IMG/VR virus record: IMGVR_UViG_3300001533_002283
Coordinates: 108,182-172,181 of that record
Length of the DNA: 64,000 nucleotides
From: a virus
Strand: one strand, 5' to 3'
The notes below the pieces were generated by a model, which saw only the letters and a list, made by a program, of their open reading frames with translations, did no database searches and had not been told where the DNA came from. Every line of letters starts with the position of its first letter. Position 1 is the stretch's first letter. Shown piece by piece: positions 12,579-33,802 of this stretch. The position numbers were made by a program, and so were the translations under genes.

Positions 12579-13412
12579 ATGGCACGACCTAAGAAAATTA
12601 CCACTGAAACCTCACCCGTTACTGCTCCCGACCCGCTCCGTCCGGGCATGAAACTAGTTGAGCGAGATTCCTACGGATTACTCAAAAATACTGAATACGT
12701 CTTTGACGACAACGGAAATGTAAATTGGCGCAAGATGGTGCCGGTAGAGTTTCTTTATGTAAATGGGGATGCTCGGCGAAAGGAAATGATTGAGCGGAAG
12801 TATAAAAAGAGTGTTAAGGAAATTGACGTTGTAGCTGATAATGTTGAAGACCGTGATTTAGTTATTACCTTGGCGGGCCTCAAACACCTGTTACGTTTAC
12901 GTGGTTATTCTAGTGTCTCGTTTCACACCAACGAGTCTAGCGAAACTTTTGCGAGTGTAAACTGTTATATTGACTTTCTACCTAATTTTGAAACAGAGGG
13001 TGTCGCCCAATCTTATTCTGAGAATGGTTCTGCTCACCTCCGCTCAACCGATGGTTTCATGCGGGCGTATCTGGTAGAAGCTGCCACAAATCGTGCGTTT
13101 GCCCGTTGTATCAGAAATTACCTCAATATTAATATCGTTAGTCGCGAGGAACTTTTTGACGAGAGTAAGGCGGCGCAAATTGACGGGGGTAATTCCCCGC
13201 TCCTTACTAATGGCTCCCCCCAGTCTATTCTTGAAAAAAAGTGTTCGGAAGCGGGGTTTGGATTCAATGCGTTGAAACTTGCGGCGATTAAATATAAAGA
13301 TAAACTTGGTAACGCCCCCGAACCTTGGACAAAATTCTCTGATATTCCCGCGCAGGATTGCTATGTTTTACTGGAAATGATTAAGACAAAGGACGATAAA
13401 CCTAAGTCTTAA
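12579..13412 (+). CDS. Conserved phage-type protein, possible DNA-annealing or recombination role
   Basis: 277 residues. It has a basic start (MARPKK), a helical region (LVITLAGLKHLLRLRGYSSV), a strand region, and the stretch AATNRAFARCIRNYLNINIV followed by EEL. That AFxRxxRN..N..I pattern is seen in uncharacterised phage proteins next to replication and recombination genes. A C-terminal small helical domain (ILEKKCSEAGFGFNALKLAA) could bind DNA. I do not know its function; a single-strand binding or annealing role is a guess from composition and position. It meets the next gene tail to tail with a four-base overlap. Confidence 0.5.
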   Translation: MARPKKITTETSPVTAPDPLRPGMKLVERDSYGLLKNTEYVFDDNGNVNWRKMVPVEFLYVNGDARRKEMIERKYKKSVKEIDVVADNVEDRDLVITLAGLKHLLRLRGYSSVSFHTNESSETFASVNCYIDFLPNFETEGVAQSYSENGSAHLRSTDGFMRAYLVEAATNRAFARCIRNYLNINIVSREELFDESKAAQIDGGNSPLLTNGSPQSILEKKCSEAGFGFNALKLAAIKYKDKLGNAPEPWTKFSDIPAQDCYVLLEMIKTKDDKPKS

Positions 13413-14431
13413 GCCATCTCCCTCCAAGGGCACGTTCTAACTCGCAAGTGCCCCACAAACTCCCCTTCAGTCTCATGATATACGTTATACAGCGTATATT
13501 TTTTTTCGTCGCCACCTTTTTTCTTTTCCCAGATAACATGGTCAGCAGGGCAGTGAGGCAGAACGGCCATTTTAATTCCATTTGGATACCAACGATTCCA
13601 ACCGATATAAAGGTCTTCGGTGCCGTGTCCTTCATATCCTTCAAAGTAGGCCAGTTCTAAAGCCTTGGCATTCATTAGCGTGCAGCCAAACCCCACCCAA
13701 TCGGTAGGGATTAAACTGCCCTTACCAATACCCGGAAAAGCGTTTTCTAACCACCCTCTTCGCCTCCATTTTTTCGCGTTTAACGCAAATACGTTACCAA
13801 AAGGAGGGCAGTTTTTAATTCTTTCTTTTATTCTTTTTAGCCTATTAATCTCTTTCTCGGTCTCTTTTTCTTTTAGTCTTTTTTCATTCTCTCTCATAAG
13901 AATTTTTAACCTCTCTGGCAAATTACGTTCTTCTGGCAAAAAATCTTCGCAAATTTGATTTTGGGGCGTCCCGCGCCCTCCAAGAAAAGCAGTATTTGGA
14001 TATGGGCACATTGCCACACTATAATACCCATCGTCAAAATTTATCGCATCAACCATTACTCGAAGAGCGTTTGCATGGGGCAGAGTATCACTATCTAGAC
14101 TCCAACAGTATTTTGCATTTAATTTAATTGCTGCGGAGTGAGCGGTTTGCCGCATATCTGCAATGAGAAGTTGAGCTTTTTGTTTGTAGTTTTCCCCTCC
14201 TTCAACGAATGCGGGGTTTTTAATCAGGTGAATACGCCATCCTTCGGGAAAAATATCGGTCCAGTATTTAGCGACCGATTTCAACTCTTCCGACTCGTCT
14301 CCAACAATTACCACGTCACCGCCCATTACCTTTGCGTTTTTAATACATGTCGCAACACGACGCCCCTGAGAGTGCATTGCGTAAGTATATGATTTTGTCG
14401 CACAAACAGAAATAACTAGATTTTCTATCAT
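13409..14431 (-). CDS. Glycosyltransferase-like, GT-A fold
   Basis: 340 residues. The N-terminus has a strand and nucleotide-binding features (NLVISVCATKSYTYAMHSQG, GGDVVIVGDESEE), and a DxD motif occurs in YCWSLDSDTLPHANAL near residue 113. Later GWLENAFPGIGKGSLIPTDW and EGHGTEDLYIGW give a second acidic cluster typical of the acceptor side. A very basic and acidic coiled stretch (KEKETEKEINRLKRIKERIK) lies in the middle. Unlike the other glycosyltransferases of the left part it is transcribed with the late strand and has its own promoter. Confidence 0.65.
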   Translation of the reverse strand: MIENLVISVCATKSYTYAMHSQGRRVATCIKNAKVMGGDVVIVGDESEELKSVAKYWTDIFPEGWRIHLIKNPAFVEGGENYKQKAQLLIADMRQTAHSAAIKLNAKYCWSLDSDTLPHANALRVMVDAINFDDGYYSVAMCPYPNTAFLGGRGTPQNQICEDFLPEERNLPERLKILMRENEKRLKEKETEKEINRLKRIKERIKNCPPFGNVFALNAKKWRRRGWLENAFPGIGKGSLIPTDWVGFGCTLMNAKALELAYFEGYEGHGTEDLYIGWNRWYPNGIKMAVLPHCPADHVIWEKKKGGDEKKYTLYNVYHETEGEFVGHLRVRTCPWREMA

Positions 14432-18030: not shown

Positions 18031-20190
18031 TTAAAAATACCTTACGGCCCTTCCTCTTCTGATAATTATACTAGGAACTTGTCCCAACTCTTGTTTTTTC
18101 TTTGCGGGGTCGTAAAAATAACGATAAAATACATCGCTATTTCTTACCCTCATTTTTTCATTCCCAAAACGGTAAGTAGTTTGCACGCCATTTGCGCCGA
18201 TTGAAACGGAGAAGCCGAGGAGGCCGGTTCCTAGACTAAGTGATGGCCCCTCTAAATCAATATTAGGAATGGTTAAAGTGGAGGAGAAAAACGGTTCAAT
18301 TTGACTGGTTTTTGTGCTCTCCAAAACGTCATTCGCGGCAGATGTGAAAGCTGCTTGGTTTGCGGAAGAGTTTTTATAATAATAAGCGGACGCCCCCAAC
18401 ACTTGTTCTTCCGATAAAATTTCGGATGAAAAATCATAGTAGTTTACATTAGCGGTTTCAGGGGGGGAATAAGTGGTTAATTCCGTTTTGGCCGCAACCC
18501 CTCCTTCGTTAATTCTAATACCACCGGTTTGTTGTGCGGTGAAAGTAATTGGTTGTTCTGATGGGTAACTTACTGGCTGCAAAGACTCTCCCGAAGTAAC
18601 CCCAAAATAAAATATAGGCTTTCTAACTTCATCCTCTATTCTAAAAAAATCTGTATCGTCGTCACTTCCTTCTATAATCACGTATTTACCTATGTCAAAA
18701 AGAAACTCTGTTTTTTGTGGATTCCACACTGGATCAATTTCCATTATCAAATAACCATTTGTTGGCGCATCCAAAGAACTTCCCGTGGGGGGAGTCCCTT
18801 CGTTAAGCTCAATAAATTCCCTTAGAGTCAAAGTGTCATAATCTTCAATAAACTGTTGCAATGGAGACAAATAATCTCTAAAAATATCAACATTTTTTAG
18901 CAAAATATATTCGTCATAAAATTTACCTTCTTGTCCGAAAATAGACTGAGCCCGCTCTAGGGTTGGTAATTTTTTCCAATAAAATCTCCCATAGAAGTTA
19001 GCATAAGCAGAATATATATTATATAATTGTTCAATATTTCTATTTTTACTTCCTATCTTTGCCGCTCTCCATTTGTAATTAGTCCTGCTATCATAAAAAG
19101 CCGTTCCGTCTGTAATTCTGTCTCTTACCGTGTCATTAATTTCTTCTGTGTCAATGATGTCCTTCACCTCGCTATTCACTCCGGGCGTTTCTAAGGCAAG
19201 ATTTAACAAAAGCTGGGGAACTCCATAATAGGCATATTTTGCACGTTTATCAAAGAGGGTAGTTTCCTCACCTAGTTTATAACTAGGGTCCATTGAAAAT
19301 CTTATTCTAATATTAGAAAACAAATAATCAGTAGTGTCATCATTTACGTTCGGCACGTCTTGTAACACTTCCCCGTCTTTCCCAAAAAATACTTCAACGC
19401 CTTTGGTGTAAGTGTCGCGCAACGAATGTCCATAAGAATTAGACTGGATATTGTTGGCCAGTTTTACTGATTCCGCCAAGGCTTCTACCGCGCTTAGATT
19501 TGCGGGATTTCTTAGGTCAATAAAATTAAGTTTACGATTTTCCCAGTAGAAACCCAACCCTAAATCATTACACCACGCAGACAACACCTCGCGCAATTTC
19601 CCCGCGTAATCTCGGCGGTATCTTGTGGCGGGGGCATCCAAGGCAGGAACGATATTAATAAATGTTGAAATTTTTTCCAATAATTCTGGAAAAGTATAAT
19701 CTACGTCCGTAACTTCTAATAAGTTAGATGCTTCCGCGCCGGTTGGACTCTCCCCCGGAAGAATGGTGCCCACGACCCCTTCGGTGACAGCGGCGTTTCG
19801 CGCACGTTCAGTTCCAACGACAATAGTGTTAATGTAAGATTCGCCTGTTACTCCACGGGTTTTTAACTTCACTACTCTTTTATCCAAATAAACTATCGAC
19901 TCATCAATGTAATCTACCCGTAGAGTTTTTCCACTTGGAGAATCCTCAATTTGATATTCAATAGGGAACATGTGGAGTGTTATCTTGCTCCCCACGGTAA
20001 TCGTCACGGGATTCCCCAAAGTAGTTAAATCGTTTTTATCAATATCGAATATTCCAGATTCATTAGTTACCTCAACAGATAACTCGGAAGGGGCTTCTCC
20101 AAAATTAGGGCTGTAAGAGAGAGAGTAGATATATCCGCCCCATGCGCGATTTTGACCATCTATGTTAATATTGTCGATTTTTTTAATCAT
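18031..20190 (-). CDS. Baseplate or tail-tip hub-like protein
   Basis: 719 residues. The N-terminus (IKKIDNINIDGQNRAWGGYI, then SYSPNFGEAPSELSVEVTNE) and the segment VLSAWCNDLGLGFYWENRKL near residue 215 have the look of tail hub proteins, in which a beta domain is followed by a short helix and a strand recording the hub fold. The middle is helical and the end beta-rich (SIGANGVQTTYRFG). It is placed after the paralogous tail proteins and before the fibers, where a hub or adaptor is expected. No peptidoglycan hydrolase motif is visible. Confidence 0.5.
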   Translation of the reverse strand: MIKKIDNINIDGQNRAWGGYIYSLSYSPNFGEAPSELSVEVTNESGIFDIDKNDLTTLGNPVTITVGSKITLHMFPIEYQIEDSPSGKTLRVDYIDESIVYLDKRVVKLKTRGVTGESYINTIVVGTERARNAAVTEGVVGTILPGESPTGAEASNLLEVTDVDYTFPELLEKISTFINIVPALDAPATRYRRDYAGKLREVLSAWCNDLGLGFYWENRKLNFIDLRNPANLSAVEALAESVKLANNIQSNSYGHSLRDTYTKGVEVFFGKDGEVLQDVPNVNDDTTDYLFSNIRIRFSMDPSYKLGEETTLFDKRAKYAYYGVPQLLLNLALETPGVNSEVKDIIDTEEINDTVRDRITDGTAFYDSRTNYKWRAAKIGSKNRNIEQLYNIYSAYANFYGRFYWKKLPTLERAQSIFGQEGKFYDEYILLKNVDIFRDYLSPLQQFIEDYDTLTLREFIELNEGTPPTGSSLDAPTNGYLIMEIDPVWNPQKTEFLFDIGKYVIIEGSDDDTDFFRIEDEVRKPIFYFGVTSGESLQPVSYPSEQPITFTAQQTGGIRINEGGVAAKTELTTYSPPETANVNYYDFSSEILSEEQVLGASAYYYKNSSANQAAFTSAANDVLESTKTSQIEPFFSSTLTIPNIDLEGPSLSLGTGLLGFSVSIGANGVQTTYRFGNEKMRVRNSDVFYRYFYDPAKKKQELGQVPSIIIRRGRAVRYF

Positions 20191-20204: not shown

Positions 20205-21386
20205 TTAGTAGGTCGGGAAACCAGACAGGTCTACTTCGGTGAGTTGGTAGCCGCCGCCCAACGCGGTCATCATGGCGTTGATTGCGGTTTTATGGTATCT
20301 TATTGACGTTCCAGACCCGGCACCGCCGTAGGTCCAGACTGTTAAAATAACCAGTTGATTATTTATCCAAACAAAAGCGGGATTACCACTGTCTCCTCCT
20401 ATTTTTGGTTCGTAAAATTCGATTCTTTTTTCCTTGAGCGGCGCACGAAAGCTTGAAAATCCATTAGAATCGTAAAACCAGTCGGTTACTAATGCCTTTT
20501 CTTCTTGGTCCAGCGTCAAAGCCGGAAGTGTGCGTATTGTTCCAAGTTCTGGAATGTAATTTGTCCAGTTATCTGGCAGGACCCTGGCAAAATTAATCGA
20601 GCTTGGAACGTCTGCATCTAATACACCAATAGTTATGTCAGGGTAATAAGGGCGATAATCTGGATGTGTTAATTTATTTACTAACGTGCGAGTTATAACC
20701 ACGTTGTCCATTGTTACAAACCGGACAGACGCGCCAACACCTAATTGGTAATGTGCAGCAAACACAATATGACGAGGTGAGATCAAGGTTCCTGCGCGAG
20801 TTACCCCTCCGGAGCTGTTCCAAGGACTAAAGCAAGACAGATCCCAATCAGCGCACCATACGTTAGGGTTTCTTACATACAAACTACCGGCGTGGTTCTG
20901 AGTGGTAAATATGCGCAAAGATTCGCCGGCATTCTTATTTAAAATCCTTGAGTCAACACCTGTGCTTATATGCTCGGATAAAGACCCAGCTACATACTCT
21001 TTTAGCACAAACGTGATGGCTCCGTTTACGGTAGAGAAAGTTAAGGTAAGAGAGACCGTTTTCCCTTGTGTAGAAAAGCTTAAAACAGCCACACCGTCAG
21101 AAACATGAGATACAAATCCAAGCTGATCTATTGTGGCGACCGAAGTGTTGCTGGATGAAAAAAATCCAGACGAAGAAACGCCTCCAAAAGAAAGTAAAAC
21201 TAACTGGTAGTCTGTTACCGAATCCCCGCCTGCGCTTCTAATTAAAACCGCGTCTTTATCAACTAATTCACTCACGACGCCGCCAGAGACCTGACGTAAA
21301 GTTAATGTAGGGGTAATGTTGCCCACAAACTCAAACGCAGGAACAACGCGCAATATTCGCGAGCTCGGTGATGCAACGATTTTCAT
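20205..21386 (-). CDS. Virion-associated trypsin-fold serine protease with Ig-like domain
   Basis: 393 residues. Residues 70-120 look like a bacterial Ig-like (Big2) domain: SSNTSVATIDQLGFVSHV then GVAVLSF. From about 185 on there is a chymotrypsin/trypsin (S1) fold with a complete triad: His212 in VFAAHY, Asp250 in YYPDITIGVLD, Ser333 in GGDSGNPAF. No signal peptide is present, so it is not a host-exported protease; it would be built into the virion. It lies between a leucine-rich-repeat protein and the hub. Possible roles are degrading host surface proteins at adsorption or processing neighbouring tail proteins. Catalytic competence is inferred from the triad. Confidence 0.75.
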   Translation of the reverse strand: MKIVASPSSRILRVVPAFEFVGNITPTLTLRQVSGGVVSELVDKDAVLIRSAGGDSVTDYQLVLLSFGGVSSSGFFSSSNTSVATIDQLGFVSHVSDGVAVLSFSTQGKTVSLTLTFSTVNGAITFVLKEYVAGSLSEHISTGVDSRILNKNAGESLRIFTTQNHAGSLYVRNPNVWCADWDLSCFSPWNSSGGVTRAGTLISPRHIVFAAHYQLGVGASVRFVTMDNVVITRTLVNKLTHPDYRPYYPDITIGVLDADVPSSINFARVLPDNWTNYIPELGTIRTLPALTLDQEEKALVTDWFYDSNGFSSFRAPLKEKRIEFYEPKIGGDSGNPAFVWINNQLVILTVWTYGGAGSGTSIRYHKTAINAMMTALGGGYQLTEVDLSGFPTY

Positions 21387-21389
21387 GGC

Positions 21390-22316
21390 TTAAACTGAAG
21401 GCGTTGCGGGCCAGTTAACCCAATCGGCAACCACTGTAATTCCTGTTTTACCTTTTATTGTTTGCCCCGCCCCTAAGGTCCAGCCAGCGGGCGTGAATGG
21501 AGCGGGTCTTAAATGAATGGTGTTTATGTTGCTTCCTGATAGCGCCTCCGAATCCAAACCGGAAAAGGGGGCATTTAAAAACAAGTCCTGAAGCGAGCAG
21601 CTGTCAAAAACTTCGTCTCCCATAGAAACAACTGAGGGTATTGACAGCAGAGCTAGAGACTCGCATCCCTGAAACGCCGAGTCGCCTAAGGTTTGAGCTG
21701 ATCTGAAATAAGCGGAAGCAAGCAAAGTTGCGTCGGCAAAAGCGCTTTGTTCTATGGTGACAACTCTGGACCCGGTTATCGTTTGAAGACTTGTTGCATC
21801 AGCAAAGGCTCCTCTACCTATAAGCTCGACAAAAGGAATACTTACACGAGTTAGATTCGAGCAGCTCTCGAAACACTCTCGACCAAGAGTTTTTAAGCGT
21901 GCGCCCCCGTAAAAGGCTAAAATTGAACTCACTCCGAAACTCGTAGACCACGAATTAGGCGTGCTTGCGAGATCGAACAGCGAAACGGTTGGAGCCGGAG
22001 AAGCCTGTAGCGTGACCGCGCTATACGGGCTGATTCCAGTCACAACGGGAAGACCATTTGAGTCTCCAAATACCAAAGAATTTATTGAGGTATCCGCCGC
22101 TATTTCATTTTCTCCCAAACTCGCAGCTTCCAAATACGCGGAGGTCCCGCCTAGCACTTGGATACGGGCGTCGATTTCGTCTGGCAGTCGTTCTGATGGT
22201 AATTCCCCCTCTGTCAAATTAGATGCGTTATTGGCTCCAATTTCCTCCCTAGCCTCCTCCCCATCCGCCGCCTTCATAAAATTATCTATTGTGGGTGATA
22301 CGATTATATTACTCAT
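21390..22316 (-). CDS. Tail fiber-like protein with BspA-type leucine-rich repeats
   Basis: 308 residues. The N-terminal 60 residues (IVSPTIDNFMKAADGEEARE) resemble the attachment part of tail fibers. Residues about 130-250 carry tandem repeats of the BspA type: LGRECFESCSNLTRVSIP, IGRGAFADATSLQTITG, IEQSAFADATLLASAYFR, LGDSAFQGCESLALLSIP and MGDEVFDSCSLQDLFL. Such repeats form a curved protein-binding surface and are usual in bacterial surface proteins. In this place they suggest a receptor-binding protein. The C-terminus ends WPATPSV. The start is preceded by TAACACT. Confidence 0.75.
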   Translation of the reverse strand: MSNIIVSPTIDNFMKAADGEEAREEIGANNASNLTEGELPSERLPDEIDARIQVLGGTSAYLEAASLGENEIAADTSINSLVFGDSNGLPVVTGISPYSAVTLQASPAPTVSLFDLASTPNSWSTSFGVSSILAFYGGARLKTLGRECFESCSNLTRVSIPFVELIGRGAFADATSLQTITGSRVVTIEQSAFADATLLASAYFRSAQTLGDSAFQGCESLALLSIPSVVSMGDEVFDSCSLQDLFLNAPFSGLDSEALSGSNINTIHLRPAPFTPAGWTLGAGQTIKGKTGITVVADWVNWPATPSV

Positions 22317-22352: not shown

Positions 22353-24146
22353 TTACCCCACCCAATCGTCCATCACATTATTATTTACCAAACTCAAATT
22401 TTCGGCAAGAAGGTATTGGCCTGACAAAGGAGCTAGATAAGAGTGCTCTACGAAATGTTGTTTTGGGTGGCGAATGCCGTTTAGATAGTAGGAAGTAGAG
22501 TTGGGTAGAAATTTATTAGTTTTATACGCGGAAACGTCACCCGTGTTTCTTTGAAAATCTTTTCCGCTCACGAAAAGTAATTTCCCGCCCGATAAAACCG
22601 ATTGAATTTGTGAGGAAAAATTAAAGTTGGAACCCGCGACGGTATAATCTTCTCCTGAAACCAACTTTTGCCCATTTCCAAAAATTAAATCAAAATTACC
22701 CCTTGGCAAACTCGCCTCACCCGAATAATTAACTATCGCCCGATTTTGTTGGTTATTATTATCGTAGAGAAGATTATCAGAGGTAAAAACCGCCTCTTTG
22801 AAATCAAAATATTGACTGTCAACAAAGAAGTCTGCAATGCCAGATTTACCCACGTTGAAAAATTGTCCGGTCGTTTGAAAACCACTTTCCACCTGAAACA
22901 CCCCATTCAAAAACGCATTACAGTTTCCACTAGGATAGAACGAATCGGCGGAGAAATCCCCCCTAACAATATCAAACACGCCATTTTTATTCACATAGTT
23001 GACTCGTTCAGGTGAGACACTATTGTAAATTTCGCTAGATTGTGAATATAAGTCGCGCCAAGTGTAACTCACCGAATCATACCCCATCTCCATGAGTCTG
23101 CCAGTGTTAATTGCCACTCCACTTCTCTCTGGTGAGATTTGAAAATTTCCAGTAATTGGCCCATATAAGGGGAAAAATCCTGACACGGAACTTAACATTC
23201 CAAATTCAGGAGTAATAGAATAAACTGGATAAGTTGGCCCGCAACCGCCTAGTGGGCTGGCATAAAAAATAATATCGTCAGGAGTATAAAGTTCGTCATC
23301 GGGGGAAGCGAATAAATCTTCGCCCTCTCCAACACTTTTGAATCCTGAAAATTGATAAGAGAACCCGGTGATGCCCGAGGTGGGGAGGCTAGTGGCGAAC
23401 CCTACAATTCCAGTTGATACCGTTTGGCCACTAACGGCAGGGAGTAAAGTTGGATAAGAGTAAAACCCACTAACAAGTCTCGTCATCGAATTACGAGAAA
23501 GAGCGCGATTAAATCCTAAAAACCCCGCATAATACCCTGAGAAGTTTTGCGCGCCAAGTTCTGGTAGTATATTTCCACCTAAATGCCATTGATTTGAAAA
23601 TAGAAGAAAATCAGAATTTATTGAAAAATCCTCTGAAACAAATTGATGGGAATTAACATCATACCAATTTACCCCGATATTATTTAACCCTACGCTTACC
23701 CCTACCACGTTAGTTTCGGCCAAACGAGTTTCCGAAGTGAGAATTACCGGACCCGCGTTATCATAATATTGGAAGTAGAGGTGATTAGCGTCATTCACCC
23801 CGATGTTGAAACCGCTCTTGAATGCCGTGCCGGTCAACGAACTGAATAATACCCCGTTGGTTCGCGCCGTGCGAAATTTGAATAAAAACGAAAAATCAGA
23901 AGAGAAATCTGATTGAGAAACATTGTTAATCTTAATCCGGTTTTGGTTAGATGCGGAGAATAAACCAGAGTTATTTTGGGTAGCGATTAATCCCGCCGTG
24001 CCGGAATATTGAGGGTCGCCAAAAGAGACGCTATTAATAACGGTGGACGAGTGATTGGCTGGCGAAAAATCATAGAAAATCTTGAAGTTAGATTGATCTA
24101 ACCCCAAGAAATCGTAGAAATAGTTTATGCCAGTTGTAATGCTCAT
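22353..24146 (-). CDS. Tail protein with LamG/concanavalin-like N-terminal domain
   Basis: 597 residues. Residues about 10-230 have the jelly-roll look of LamG or concanavalin-type domains: FSSDFSFLFKFRTARTNGV, FNIGVNDANHLYFQYYD, FSGYYAGFLGFNRALSRNSM. Such domains commonly bind glycans. A segment LYTPDDIIFYASPLGG recurs in similar form in the 420-residue tail protein at 37287-38549. The rest is beta-rich without known motifs. Position suggests a fiber or tip protein. Confidence 0.6.
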   Translation of the reverse strand: MSITTGINYFYDFLGLDQSNFKIFYDFSPANHSSTVINSVSFGDPQYSGTAGLIATQNNSGLFSASNQNRIKINNVSQSDFSSDFSFLFKFRTARTNGVLFSSLTGTAFKSGFNIGVNDANHLYFQYYDNAGPVILTSETRLAETNVVGVSVGLNNIGVNWYDVNSHQFVSEDFSINSDFLLFSNQWHLGGNILPELGAQNFSGYYAGFLGFNRALSRNSMTRLVSGFYSYPTLLPAVSGQTVSTGIVGFATSLPTSGITGFSYQFSGFKSVGEGEDLFASPDDELYTPDDIIFYASPLGGCGPTYPVYSITPEFGMLSSVSGFFPLYGPITGNFQISPERSGVAINTGRLMEMGYDSVSYTWRDLYSQSSEIYNSVSPERVNYVNKNGVFDIVRGDFSADSFYPSGNCNAFLNGVFQVESGFQTTGQFFNVGKSGIADFFVDSQYFDFKEAVFTSDNLLYDNNNQQNRAIVNYSGEASLPRGNFDLIFGNGQKLVSGEDYTVAGSNFNFSSQIQSVLSGGKLLFVSGKDFQRNTGDVSAYKTNKFLPNSTSYYLNGIRHPKQHFVEHSYLAPLSGQYLLAENLSLVNNNVMDDWVG

Positions 24147-27721: not shown

Positions 27722-30700
27722 TTAGCGACGAGCACCAGAGGGCGCGGCGGTTGGCATAGTGTTCAATCCGTTATCCTTATTATTCTGATTCTTTAATTCC
27801 AGAACCATTTTTACAGTTTTTTCTACCGTCTCTTTTATTTGGGCTATTTCCTCGGGGGTAACGCGACCATCTTTTACAATAACTTCAAGAGCGGCGTTGA
27901 TTTTATTTTCAACCGCAATTTTGGTTTTATCGCTGGCCCCTTCAAGAGCCTCGGTTAACCCTTTGTTGATAGAAGCACCAAATGCTAATCCACCTTCTTC
28001 AGCGGCAGCTTTAAAATTAATAGCAGCGGTTTTTTCGGCCAAATCTTTTTCCTGATTTTGTCTATTTTTTTGACCCGTGGTAAATCTGCCTGATGTATCG
28101 TTGTTAAATTGAGCGTCAATGGCGGCGCGAGCAGGAACGTCGGCAAGACTATTTTGGACGTTAAAAAGAGATTGGTTTGAAAGGGTGGTTCTACCCGTAA
28201 AAGTAGACTCCATTGTTGGAGCGCCGGGTTTAGGGGCCGAGCCATAAACTTCCTTAATCACATCCTTAACCCCCATGAAGAGATTTAGATTCCGGGTTTC
28301 TTCGTTCAGTCTCTCCTCGGCCTGATTAAACGCTTCGGCGGCAGATTTAACCCGCTCGCCAAACTCGAAAACTTCGGTATTTAATTTTTCGAACAAAGCT
28401 TGAGAGCGTTCGGGGGCGAAAGAGAAAATAAGCTGTTTTAGCTTTTCATCTTGACCCTCTTTGTTTGGCGATAAAAATTGAAGGAAGTTTTGAGACGCCT
28501 CGTTACCTTTGAATCTTTCTGCTATTTCGCTGACACTTCCACCCCTTGATATTTCGCGAGTTAACAAAGAAGTAGAGTCCTGTAGTCTCAACGTCGGATC
28601 TTTTTTAATAAAATCTTGTAGATTTCTCCCGGAGACCGCTTGGGCGGCTTGGTTGAACGCTTCAGAAGAAGTTCCTCTTAATAGACCGCGAGCAGAATCA
28701 CTAGGTGTAACAAAAGCCATTCTATCCCTCAGCTCATTCGCACTTGTTTGTTTTCCAATTAAGGCTTGCTGCTCTTCTTTTAATTTTGTTTCTGCCGCTG
28801 TTTTAGCAACTCCAGCATCAATAACCTTTTGTCTCTCGGCGAAAACAAGTATTAAATCTTCAATAGCCGCGATAGTGTTTTTAGTATTTTCCGCAATATT
28901 TTTTGCCGTAGTTAGCTCCTCTTTTTGTAACGCCAACGGGGTAACAAATTGATCGTTGGCTCTAACCATGGCGGCTTCCCTTGACAATCCAGCAACCTGA
29001 CCGGCAGACCCAACAATGCCCCTTAATCTTCTCGCGGCGTCAGGATTACGAATGCCTAAATTGGATGTTTCTAACACTCTTTGGGCTTCTGAATAATCGG
29101 TCCCCCCCTTGGTTCTATCCAGCGTCAACGCCTCAAATAATCTACGTTGCAAATCTCTACCTCCAACATCACCACCGGGACCAAACGCGCCCCCCGCTTG
29201 AAACTCGCCTTCAAAAAACCCTTTAAGTGACGCTGCCAACACTTGACGGTTTTTTTGCAAAATATCAAATTGATTAGCGTCGGCCACTCTTTCCAGATTC
29301 TCCGGAGTTCTAAATGAATCAACCATTTCGGGTAGAATTTGGCCAAGTTGAATTAACCCTTGTGCCTCCGTAATTCTACCTTGTGTAGAACCAATCCCCG
29401 CCGCCATTCTCTCTTCGGGAAACATAAACGCGCGACTTCTCAAAGTTTTATTCGCCGCATTCACGCCCGCCCCCGCGCGAGCACCTTCAAAAATCGCCGT
29501 GGGATCTAATTCTTGTCCTAAACCACCGCCAAAAATTCTACCTAAGTCTCTACGACGAAGTAATTTTTCCTGAGTTTTAAGCTGCAACTCCTGAATTTCC
29601 GTCTGTTCATTTTGACGAATCGCCATTTCCTGAGCGTTTTTAAGAAAAGAGCCGAGTAAATCTTGAATGGCCTTGCGCGACTCTGCAATATTCTTAAAAC
29701 TATCATCTCCAAGGGCTTCTAATTTTCTTAATTCGTCCACCACATCAATGCTCGCTCTCGGGTCTTTTAACGCATCAAGGAAAGCGGTTTTTAGCGGTCC
29801 TTCTTTTAAGTTATCCGAGCCAAAACTGACCAGCCCGCTTCTCGCGGAACTTCTTAAAGCCCGATCTTCTTCTGATTTGGAAAACTCCAGCTCTCTCCGC
29901 GCCATATTAGCCTGACGCAGAAACACACTGGATTCAGTCGCACCACCCGCCGAAAGAAGTTTAAGTTGTTCCGCCTGTCCCGCTAAACCAATTCTTCCAG
30001 TAGATGAAGATTGCAATTCTAAAATTTGTCTCGTATTATCAATGTCGATAACAAGTTTTTTAAAATCCTCGTTGTATTTTTGAAGCTGGAGAACATATTT
30101 TTGGTCTATTTTAGAGCGTTCCTCCATCTCCTTTGTTATCCCGCGACCCTGAATTGCCGAGTCTAGAACAACAAGAAGCTCGTTTACATCTTTTCCCACT
30201 TTTGAGGCGTCTAAGCCGAATTTTGATAAAGCCTCGGATACCGCCTTTATATCTCCACCGGTTCTTAAATTTTCAAAATTTTTCCTAACTTCCTCAAACA
30301 CCTCGGGTTTAATTTTAGAGGAAATTGCTAAAGAATCACCAATTTTTGCCAAATCTTCTGTTCTTGCGGTTCCACCAAAACCTAAAGTTTTATTAACTCT
30401 CCCCGCGTTCGCCGCAGTAATCGCAACCCCGACACTCTCTTCTGCCAGCTTCAACGCATTTTTATTAGCAAGTTCGGAAACCGCTTTGTTTAGTGCATCA
30501 ACATTGCCCGCCGCATCAAGGAACTTACGACGAGTTTCATTATCACCAATGTTATTAAAAAGTGTGGTTAATTGAGTGTTTAAATTGGTTATATCAGAAG
30601 TTTTGGCGTTACCCGAAGCAATCAAATCTGAAAGTTGGGCCTGAACGGTGGCATATTGTTGAGCGTTGGTAACATTTGATTCCAAGCTAGCCGATAACTG

Positions 30701-33700
30701 TTGGTAAGCATCGGCGGCGGCTCTAAACTCTTTTTCTGATTTTTTTGCAGCGGCACCGAGAGTTCCAACGGCAAGACCCAAAGTTCCCATCACGGCGATA
30801 CCCATTGGACCGGCGAGAGAGCCTAGCGCGGCACCACTTGCGGCACCTTGAACACCACCGGCAACAACTCCGCTACCCAACACACCGGAACCGGCCAAGG
30901 CAGATGCACCAAAACTTGCGGCAATCGCGCCGCCAGTTAATCTACCCGAACGTAATTGACGAGTTTGCTGTTGACGAGTTTCTAGCGCAATTTGCTGTTG
31001 CGGGGTGAGTTTTTGTCCAGCGGGAACACCCAAGGTATTTCTTAATGCTTTTTCGTCGCCCTTGGCAGAACCAAAAAATCCAGCTATCCCACGCTCACGA
31101 GTGGCAAAAGTTCCAGAAAGTGCTTGGTCAAAATTAACAGCGGAACTAGCCTGAATAAACTGACTTCTGAACTCCCCGATTCTTTTACGCAAAAGTTCCC
31201 TCGCAACCGGATCGGCTTTTATTTGATTAGAAGTGAACCCCCTAAATTCATCACTCTGAATAGCCGAACGAAAAGCGGCGGCGTCAATAGCTCCTCTCTG
31301 ACGCTTGTCAAGTTGAGAAAATCTAGTTCCAGAAGAAATTGATTCCTGAGCGCCAGATAATAATTCTGATATATTTCTTCCTTGGGAAGCGCGAGCAATT
31401 TGACCTCTTAAAGAATTCATCTCAATAGAACCGCCACCCCTTAATCCAACTGGAATAGAAGGTGAATAAGGAATGCCTGTGGCATATCTAGCTTGCTCCC
31501 TATTTCTTATAGCAGTCATCCTTGCTTCCGCCTCTTCCGTGGAAAGTTTATTACCGCCGCTTCTAAAAATAGAAGCCAATCTCTTTTCCTCTTCGGCCCT
31601 TTCTGCCATGACTTTACCTAGCTTCGCGCCCGCGTTTTGAATTACTGTATTAACCTTGGCCAATCCAGAATTTGTTAAATTAAGGGTTTTAGTATATTCG
31701 TTAAGTTCCCTTACAGCGTTACTAAAATCTTGCGGCGAAACCGCCATTCTAACTTTAGAAGAAAGAGAGCGTAGTTTTTTAGCCTCATCCGCAAATAAAG
31801 TCTGTTCTCCACTTAAAATAGAAACGTTACCCAAAATATCTTTAACCTTGCCCGTAGGAGTTCTTCTTGAGACATTATCAAATTCGGCAAAATTCGGAAC
31901 AAACCCATTCCCTGTCCCTTTCTTCGGGTCCATACCAAGCGCGATTGCGCGATTTACCCCTTGAAAGCCACCAAGAGGTTCGTCACGACGATTCGCAACG
32001 AGTAGTCCCATTGGATTCCGAGGGGATTTTACACGGGGATCTCTATCAACGTAAATAGACGACGCAGGAACTCCGGCCATTTTTTCTCTATTAACGGCCT
32101 GAGCAATAGGGTCGGCAAAACGCGGAGCCTCCCCCTTAATGTTGAATTTTCCCCCACTAAAACTCATTCCCGCCTCACCAATCTTACTTTGCCCAATACC
32201 AACTCGGCTTAAACCACCACCAGAAGCAAAACCGGGGGAAAGATTAGAGGTAAGAGCCCCAGCCGATGCGCGTAATGCAACTTGTTCTCTTACAATAGCT
32301 AAAATTCTTCTTTCAACCTGCTCTAGACTAGTTGCTCCCTTAATAATATCAGCATAAGATTTACCAGAAAGTTCGAGTAATTTTTGCACTTCCGCCTGAA
32401 CTTGTCTTTGGCGTTCGACCCCCCGAACGTTATCCAGAATTGACTTACCCGCTTGAACGGCGAAAGAGCCAAGGCGAAGGAAAAGAGCTATTAAACCAGC
32501 GGAGGCAAGGGCCAATCCGGGGCCGCTTAGTGCGCCGCCAATGCCCTTGAGTAATCCTTCTCCAATGCTAGTTCCTGCCTTTTCTCCCTCTTGCGATGAA
32601 AAAATCTTTAGGAAAAAATTAGCCCAAGTCTCCAACTCTTTGATAACGGGTCCAAATATATTAGAGCCAAGTTCCGCACTTAACTGAGTAATACCAACTT
32701 TAATAGCATTGAGAGAAGCTGCCGTGGTTTTATTTAATTCTTCGTTACGGCGAATAGCTTCGTCAGTAGCGTCGTTAGCAACCACAAGAGCGCGAGCATA
32801 AAACCCATATTCTTTGCTCAAATCATTTAATTGCGCTTTTAACTGATTGATTTGGAAAACACCACCGACCAACTCGGAAACGAAAGCCTTTTGTTCTTGA
32901 CCTAATCCGTCATAGACTAGTGAAAGATTTTTAAGAATTTGAGGAGCACCAAGTAACTCTCCATTAACTTGACGAACCGCCACGCCAATCTTTTCCAACT
33001 GTTCCAAAGTAGAACTACGTTGAAGGCGGGTGAAAATAGTTTTAAGAGAATTACCAATAACCGCGCCGCCACGAGCCGTAGTCTGTTGAGCGGCAGTTAC
33101 TAACGCAACCAGTTCATCAAAACTCACACCCGCGTCACTCGCCGCACTAGCAGAACGCTTAATAGCTTCGGTAAGGTCTCGTTCTGAAACCGCGAACTTG
33201 GCGGCAACATTCGCGAGTTTATTAACCACCACTACGTCATCGAGAGCTTCTTTGCTAAATGAGTTGATTGCTGCGGTAAGACCCTCAACCGCATCCTTGG
33301 CCTCCAACCCGCCTAAACGAGCAAGAATCAGCGCGGCATTTAATCTTTTTGTGGTAGCTTCGGCACTAAGACCTTGGCGGGATAACTCTAGTGCGGCCTC
33401 GGCGGCAACTTGAAACCCCGTTCCGGCATTCTTCGCGGCTTGAAAAATTTCATCGGTGAACTTAGCGAGATTCTTATTGGTCTGATTGAGAACACTGTTA
33501 ATATCCGCGATAACTTTCTCCACCTCAATAGCATCGGTGATTACAGCGCGTAAACCTCTCTGAACGGCGAAAATAGCCCCGGCAGAAGCACCGAATGCCA
33601 AAACACGGGCGTTGGATGCCTCCATTGATTTGTTAAACTCATTGGCCTGCCCCGTGATTCTACCAAGGGGACCACTCAGGCGATTCAACCCACTGGCATC

Positions 33701-33802
33701 AATTTTGGGCCTAAGGTTCAGCGCACGTTCAGCCGAGCGAGCACCACGAATGATACTTTGCTCAATTCCTGTAACTTTGCCTGTTAAAATAATTGATTCC
33801 AT
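27722..33802 (-). CDS. Tail tape measure protein
   Basis: 2026 residues, by far the longest gene. Residues about 50-300 carry the TP901-type core: FGASAGAIFAVQRGLRAVI, ELSRQGLSAEATTKRLNAAL, DEIFQAAKNAGTG and ARGGAVIGNSLKTIFTRLQR. Hydrophobic stretches occur near residue 440 and around 1000 (glycine- and alanine-rich, for example GPMGIAVMGTLGLAVGTLG). A motif GNGFVPNFA occurs near 620. Tape measures set tail length at about 0.15 nm per residue, which would give a tail of some 300 nm. The protein is rich in Gln, Lys, Glu helices, as usual. The two genes upstream are probably its assembly chaperones. Confidence 0.9.
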   Translation of the reverse strand: MESIILTGKVTGIEQSIIRGARSAERALNLRPKIDASGLNRLSGPLGRITGQANEFNKSMEASNARVLAFGASAGAIFAVQRGLRAVITDAIEVEKVIADINSVLNQTNKNLAKFTDEIFQAAKNAGTGFQVAAEAALELSRQGLSAEATTKRLNAALILARLGGLEAKDAVEGLTAAINSFSKEALDDVVVVNKLANVAAKFAVSERDLTEAIKRSASAASDAGVSFDELVALVTAAQQTTARGGAVIGNSLKTIFTRLQRSSTLEQLEKIGVAVRQVNGELLGAPQILKNLSLVYDGLGQEQKAFVSELVGGVFQINQLKAQLNDLSKEYGFYARALVVANDATDEAIRRNEELNKTTAASLNAIKVGITQLSAELGSNIFGPVIKELETWANFFLKIFSSQEGEKAGTSIGEGLLKGIGGALSGPGLALASAGLIALFLRLGSFAVQAGKSILDNVRGVERQRQVQAEVQKLLELSGKSYADIIKGATSLEQVERRILAIVREQVALRASAGALTSNLSPGFASGGGLSRVGIGQSKIGEAGMSFSGGKFNIKGEAPRFADPIAQAVNREKMAGVPASSIYVDRDPRVKSPRNPMGLLVANRRDEPLGGFQGVNRAIALGMDPKKGTGNGFVPNFAEFDNVSRRTPTGKVKDILGNVSILSGEQTLFADEAKKLRSLSSKVRMAVSPQDFSNAVRELNEYTKTLNLTNSGLAKVNTVIQNAGAKLGKVMAERAEEEKRLASIFRSGGNKLSTEEAEARMTAIRNREQARYATGIPYSPSIPVGLRGGGSIEMNSLRGQIARASQGRNISELLSGAQESISSGTRFSQLDKRQRGAIDAAAFRSAIQSDEFRGFTSNQIKADPVARELLRKRIGEFRSQFIQASSAVNFDQALSGTFATRERGIAGFFGSAKGDEKALRNTLGVPAGQKLTPQQQIALETRQQQTRQLRSGRLTGGAIAASFGASALAGSGVLGSGVVAGGVQGAASGAALGSLAGPMGIAVMGTLGLAVGTLGAAAKKSEKEFRAAADAYQQLSASLESNVTNAQQYATVQAQLSDLIASGNAKTSDITNLNTQLTTLFNNIGDNETRRKFLDAAGNVDALNKAVSELANKNALKLAEESVGVAITAANAGRVNKTLGFGGTARTEDLAKIGDSLAISSKIKPEVFEEVRKNFENLRTGGDIKAVSEALSKFGLDASKVGKDVNELLVVLDSAIQGRGITKEMEERSKIDQKYVLQLQKYNEDFKKLVIDIDNTRQILELQSSSTGRIGLAGQAEQLKLLSAGGATESSVFLRQANMARRELEFSKSEEDRALRSSARSGLVSFGSDNLKEGPLKTAFLDALKDPRASIDVVDELRKLEALGDDSFKNIAESRKAIQDLLGSFLKNAQEMAIRQNEQTEIQELQLKTQEKLLRRRDLGRIFGGGLGQELDPTAIFEGARAGAGVNAANKTLRSRAFMFPEERMAAGIGSTQGRITEAQGLIQLGQILPEMVDSFRTPENLERVADANQFDILQKNRQVLAASLKGFFEGEFQAGGAFGPGGDVGGRDLQRRLFEALTLDRTKGGTDYSEAQRVLETSNLGIRNPDAARRLRGIVGSAGQVAGLSREAAMVRANDQFVTPLALQKEELTTAKNIAENTKNTIAAIEDLILVFAERQKVIDAGVAKTAAETKLKEEQQALIGKQTSANELRDRMAFVTPSDSARGLLRGTSSEAFNQAAQAVSGRNLQDFIKKDPTLRLQDSTSLLTREISRGGSVSEIAERFKGNEASQNFLQFLSPNKEGQDEKLKQLIFSFAPERSQALFEKLNTEVFEFGERVKSAAEAFNQAEERLNEETRNLNLFMGVKDVIKEVYGSAPKPGAPTMESTFTGRTTLSNQSLFNVQNSLADVPARAAIDAQFNNDTSGRFTTGQKNRQNQEKDLAEKTAAINFKAAAEEGGLAFGASINKGLTEALEGASDKTKIAVENKINAALEVIVKDGRVTPEEIAQIKETVEKTVKMVLELKNQNNKDNGLNTMPTAAPSGARR

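Follow-up and report, generated by a model that had tools for sequence, protein, structure and literature searches.

The window, i.e. the whole 64,000-nt stretch of DNA that was analysed, comes from a large uncultured phage and is the last part (positions 108,182 to 172,181) of IMG/VR record IMGVR_UViG_3300001533_002283, a linear contig of 172 kb. Its tail block is arranged, in transcription order, as tape measure, f534, f632, f597, LRR fibre, protease, hub-like gene, f362 and f158 (Table 1). A sequence-only reading had placed a protease in the fibre gene block, in agreement with the position of the tape measure gene five genes upstream and of an LRR fibre gene directly adjacent. The limits it gave for the ORF were exact; the strand, which it had not stated, is minus. 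The ORF starts with ATG, 3 nt past the stop codon of the upstream gene. No match to the hub-like gene was obtained in 388 Verrucomicrobiota genomes, in a search run without a positive control. Glycosyltransferase-like genes, recognised by eye, lie beside the tail block at window positions 13409-14431 and 425-1793, and the former is kept beside the block in the related records L008 and L130. Also, an AACAC motif (typically TAACAC followed by C or T) was observed at most 13 nt upstream of the ATG in 10 of 46 window genes, compared with 1.8% of all ATGs, examples being the genes at 18031, 16938, 16441, 21390, 24191, 34901, 7684, 8142, 11371 and 12579. Shine-Dalgarno-like cores were rare (7/46 genes), and AACAC is possibly a non-Shine-Dalgarno leader motif.

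Table 1. Features of the fibre-protease region and neighbouring tail genes (window coordinates)
Feature	Position	Strand	Basis
Trypsin-fold protease gene (predicted), 393 aa	20205..21386	-	ORF, triad, AF2, Foldseek
Conserved segment and catalytic domain, residues about 158-393	20208..20915	-	Family alignment, AF2, Foldseek
His212 codon (catalytic)	20751..20753	-	Invariant in 85/85
Asp250 codon (catalytic)	20637..20639	-	Invariant in 85/85
Ser333 codon (catalytic nucleophile, GGDSGNP)	20388..20390	-	Invariant in 85/85
Big_2 / intimin-type Ig-like domain, residues about 65-131	20994..21194	-	Weak Pfam match, structural match
Tail tape measure protein	27722..33802	-	PHROG 4211, E 2.9e-48
Core tail gene f597, bordering the fibre-protease pair upstream	22353..24146	-	Block comparison
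Partner fibre gene (308 aa), ending 3 nt before the protease	21390..22316	-	Shared fibre segment and BspA-type LRR tip
LRR_5 region of partner fibre, residues 142-264	21525..21893	-	Pfam LRR_5, E 3.2e-18
Shared fibre segment LPSERLPDEIDARIQVL..., residues about 32-107	21996..22223	-	Common to L008 and L006 fibres
Core tail gene, 719 aa, hub-like from position only, directly downstream of protease	18031..20190	-	Kept in L008, L034, L130, L132

The three catalytic residues named in the sequence-only reading were found at the positions claimed, His212 in the motif FAAH, Asp250 in PDITIGVLD and Ser333 in GGDSGNP, and follow the His-Asp-Ser order of family S1 and the PA clan. No family in Pfam, NCBIfam or PHROGs covered the catalytic region, and only weak Big_2/Ig matches were obtained. 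The Pfam Trypsin/Trypsin_2 profiles, a further mark of S1 and the PA clan, did not match the window protein, and neither did the Peptidase_S74 domain, so that a self-cleaving tailspike chaperone of this type was rejected. The AF2 model, for which 32 family sequences served as input, reached a pLDDT of 91 and a pTM of 0.85 and contained the chymotrypsin-like double beta-barrel of the PA clan. Foldseek matched it to 486 PDB chains at E <= 0.001 (best E 4.2e-9, probability 1.00), and the 50 of these 486 that were listed were all trypsin-fold enzymes or mutants thereof (factor Xa, thrombin, trypsin, chymotrypsin). TM-scores of 0.50-0.68 of the target indicated that the fold is divergent. The best match to a predicted viral structure was to one uncultured Caudovirales protein (E 3.5e-24). 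Pro327 aligned with Asp189 of trypsin, and most relatives have N, S, G, P or T at this position of the sequence alignment; specificity for Lys/Arg is therefore not expected, and the S1 pocket would probably not be trypsin-like. A head-maturation protease was rejected as an identity for the gene, which sits with fibres; the usual prohead protease families have folds other than trypsin.

The Ig-like N-terminal domain proposed earlier was retained for residues about 65-131, which match intimin Big_2, but not for residues 22-64, which form other beta structure without a match. A model of the N-terminal fragment (pLDDT 82) superposed on intimin Big_2 over about 60 residues with an rmsd of 1.9 A (Foldseek probability 1.00, E about 1e-2). 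The Pfam Big_2 profile (PF02368) scored 14.4 of 22.8 bits (E 0.037), i.e. below the curated cut-off; the structural match nevertheless supports a Big_2 fold in the modelled fragment. Hydropathy of the N-terminus agreed with the absence of a signal peptide.

Single-sequence searches with the window protease gave no match in IMG/VR, GTDB genomes, plasmids or PDB sequences. The family was opened by alignments seeded with a 27% homologue from the structural block of an uncultured podovirus from Manatee Spring. Successive searches then yielded 35 and 68 viral loci, partly on the same contigs, together with 10 bacterial contigs, and a profile search detected relatives in 14 of 195 Verrucomicrobiota genomes. 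Only one homologue, annotated as hypothetical, was present among 50,697 phage records. The triad was invariant in all 47 sequences of a smaller alignment and in all 85 homologues, down to about 22-28% identity; His212, Asp250, Gly331, Asp332 and Ser333 were all invariant in the 85 catalytic domains (79 distinct). Conservation of the serine was partly selected, because the GDSG motif was included in the search patterns for many loci, but His and Asp lay outside these patterns, and the matches L049-L066 came from a pattern-free profile search. Conservation of the triad is not due to chance. Trypsin-fold proteins without proteolytic activity are known from other systems, and the fold might accordingly serve merely as a receptor-binding tip, which is very improbable here: His, Asp, Ser and GDSG were kept at great divergence, and a pure binder would not need them.

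The distant bacterial relatives L047, L058 and L046 exceeded the Pfam Trypsin cut-off and thus tie the family to S1. The earlier proposal of a trypsin-like protease is backed by these bridging relatives, by the predicted fold and by the invariant triad. Similarity to S1 (trypsin/chymotrypsin; PF00089, PF13365) comprises the predicted fold, the His-Asp-Ser order, GDSGxP and a Trp aligned with position 215. In contrast to S1 enzymes, the window protease is unseen by Pfam, lacks Asp at the position aligned with 189 and carries N-terminal Big_2 in place of a signal peptide and propeptide, and its family has its own conserved segment (FSTQNH..YVRN..W..DL..ISPWNS) preceding the catalytic core.

Comparison of related phages revealed that the fibre and protease genes change place together. 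L008 and L034 share the tail block of the window at about 27-46% protein identity; the pair lies between f597 and the hub-like gene in the window, and two genes earlier, between f632 and f597, in L008/L034. In the latter it consists of a Gly-rich fibre with the N-terminal segment of the window fibre, followed by the protease. L130 has the tail block without the pair, which was found about 35 kb away in the same record near a terminase gene, as genes for a Gly-rich, Mtd_N-like fibre and a protease of 44% identity, separated by 3 nt as in the window. The fragment L132, which keeps the hub-like gene, has neither fibre nor protease. Since the two genes were relocated together across these phages, fibre and protease travel as a unit. 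The protease is thus encoded in, and moves with, a tail-fibre module, as is characteristic of virion-associated tail enzymes.

LRR-tipped fibres were located one or two ORFs before the protease in five lineages (the window, L005-L007, L018/L020/L079, L038 and L069), and the LRR queries matched nowhere else in 1826 ORFs of 132 loci. Random placement in five representative loci would have a probability of about 1e-5, a value that is indicative, the queries having been chosen from these loci. Partner fibres were very diverse, being of LRR_5, 23-residue LRR, Gly-rich or collagen-like type, and in L003 a Mtd_N/PTR/collagen fibre lies upstream of the protease. The protease of L073 matched long-tail-fibre PHROGs at residues 3-58 (E 7e-11); such a fusion to a tail-attachment domain was seen in this homologue, while the window protein carries Big_2 instead. 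In L027 the N-terminus of the protease consists of collagen-like repeats. Exceptions were L004, with a protease homologue among head-completion genes, and the marine group L012, L022 and L028, where the protease lies outside an evident fibre block and has other neighbours. Two fibre-protease pairs in tandem, with Mtd_N-bearing fibres, were present at L018:6521-11053 and L079:1987-7137, the second protease being divergent with its triad kept. Sulfotransferase-like genes, again recognised by eye, occurred between or beside fibre and protease at L069:5003-5851, L049:2748-3647 and L068:1-816. Mtd_N-bearing fibres (PF18454) are comparable in that several relatives have this anchor domain in the fibre encoded immediately before the protease; they differ in the LRR or Gly-rich tips and the protease companion described here, and the window fibre gave no Mtd_N match. 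A new finding here is that the protease gene follows a tail-fibre gene with an LRR- or Gly-rich tip, often with Mtd_N, and moves with it as a unit.

Such linkage might also be that of an enzyme and its substrate. Intramolecular chaperone peptidases mature some tailspikes by cleavage, and the protease could cleave the adjacent fibre in the infected cell or at assembly, whereby the fibre would trimerise or become exposed. The near-perfect linkage, the co-mobility, the tandem pairs and the 3-nt gap, which makes translational coupling likely, all fit this main rival. It is nevertheless rather unlikely: fibres so diverse next to a conserved catalytic domain show no evident cleavage site in common, Big_2 and the fused tail-fibre domains point to a structural, anchoring role, and some family members have no adjacent fibre.

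The bacterial relatives belong mostly to Verrucomicrobiota; several look secreted, some with PEP-CTERM anchors. Viral and bacterial sequences were interleaved in the tree, where at least 5 label changes were forced by starred branches, indicating that the protease gene has crossed between phages and bacteria. Some contigs classed as bacterial (L038, L041 and L039) have tape-measure-like genes and are in fact phages or prophages. The secreted trypsin-like proteins of Verrucomicrobiota share a homologous catalytic domain with the window protease, but they are chromosomal and have signal peptides and anchors. Fibre-like and protease neighbours at L038:957-4251, L041:1536-4448 and L128:4065-6777 both begin with signal-peptide-like segments. 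These are odd for virion proteins, which assemble in the cytoplasm, and count against a place in the virion. Proteases of a marine phage subgroup (L012, L017, L022, L028, L029 and relatives) contain low-complexity repeats (GIGSTSA, SAETSAE), and that of L028 also a C-terminal hydrophobic segment. A protease made late and released by lysis, or by export in members with a signal peptide, could clear surface protein or debris for the escape of progeny, as the secreted look of bacterial relatives and the signal-like N-termini of some phage members would allow. This is improbable, as the window protein has no signal-like N-terminus, Big_2 and fused fibre domains are present in the family, and the protease stays with the fibre after relocation.

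We favour, at a probability of roughly 0.55, a virion-borne protease of the distal tail that works with the receptor-binding fibre on a host surface protein. As the fibre and protease genes relocate together in related phages, the protease probably acts on or beside the part of the virus that contacts the host. A place in the virion or tail, as proposed in the sequence-only reading, gained indirect support from this co-mobility, from the tail-fibre N-terminal domain that one homologue carries as a fusion and from the fibre neighbours in many phages; judged by gene context, residence in the virion is likely. That the substrate is a host surface protein has slightly less than an even chance; we thus infer the location strongly and the substrate weakly. 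The distal tail would contain a trypsin-fold serine protease, predicted to be catalytically competent, whose gene forms, with that of the upstream receptor-binding fibre (LRR-tipped in the window), an accessory, co-mobile two-gene unit. The Big_2 or N-terminal half might attach the protease or bridge it to the fibre or baseplate. Once the fibre has bound, the protease would cleave an adhesin, a receptor or a layer of protein at the surface of the host, comparable to the action of tailspike depolymerases on polysaccharide. It resembles these virion-associated enzymes in that its gene lies beside, or in one homologue is fused to, a receptor-binding fibre and belongs to a swappable module, but it is predicted to cut protein. 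By its sequence and gene context, the window protease seems to combine features of an S1 protease and of a virion-associated tail enzyme, yet it fails the Pfam Trypsin profile and has an uncommon partner. An open-access literature search, incomplete in coverage, yielded no description of a trypsin-fold tail protease. The sole peptidase named in a review of virion-associated enzymes (PMC5380687) belongs to phage PhiNIT1, its target being the poly-gamma-glutamate capsule.

More tentatively, and with the odds leaning against it, the pair might represent a widespread, undescribed class of phage receptor-binding module that combines a fibre of LRR or Mtd_N type with a trypsin-fold protease. The protease would cleave the bound host surface protein, leading to irreversible adsorption or an opened protein coat, and would be the protein-cutting equivalent of tailspike depolymerases; phages with the module would probably be those of Verrucomicrobiota and related bacteria. 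The catalytic domain, invisible to Pfam, NCBIfam and PHROGs, fills an annotation gap. The virion enzymes known to clear a path to the host act mostly on polysaccharides and peptidoglycan. If our reading is true, this fibre-linked, co-mobile family would show that in some phages surface protein is cut in their place; it would also add a protease family whose genomic partner is defined, and offer an entry mechanism that can be tested for phages whose hosts have been little studied.
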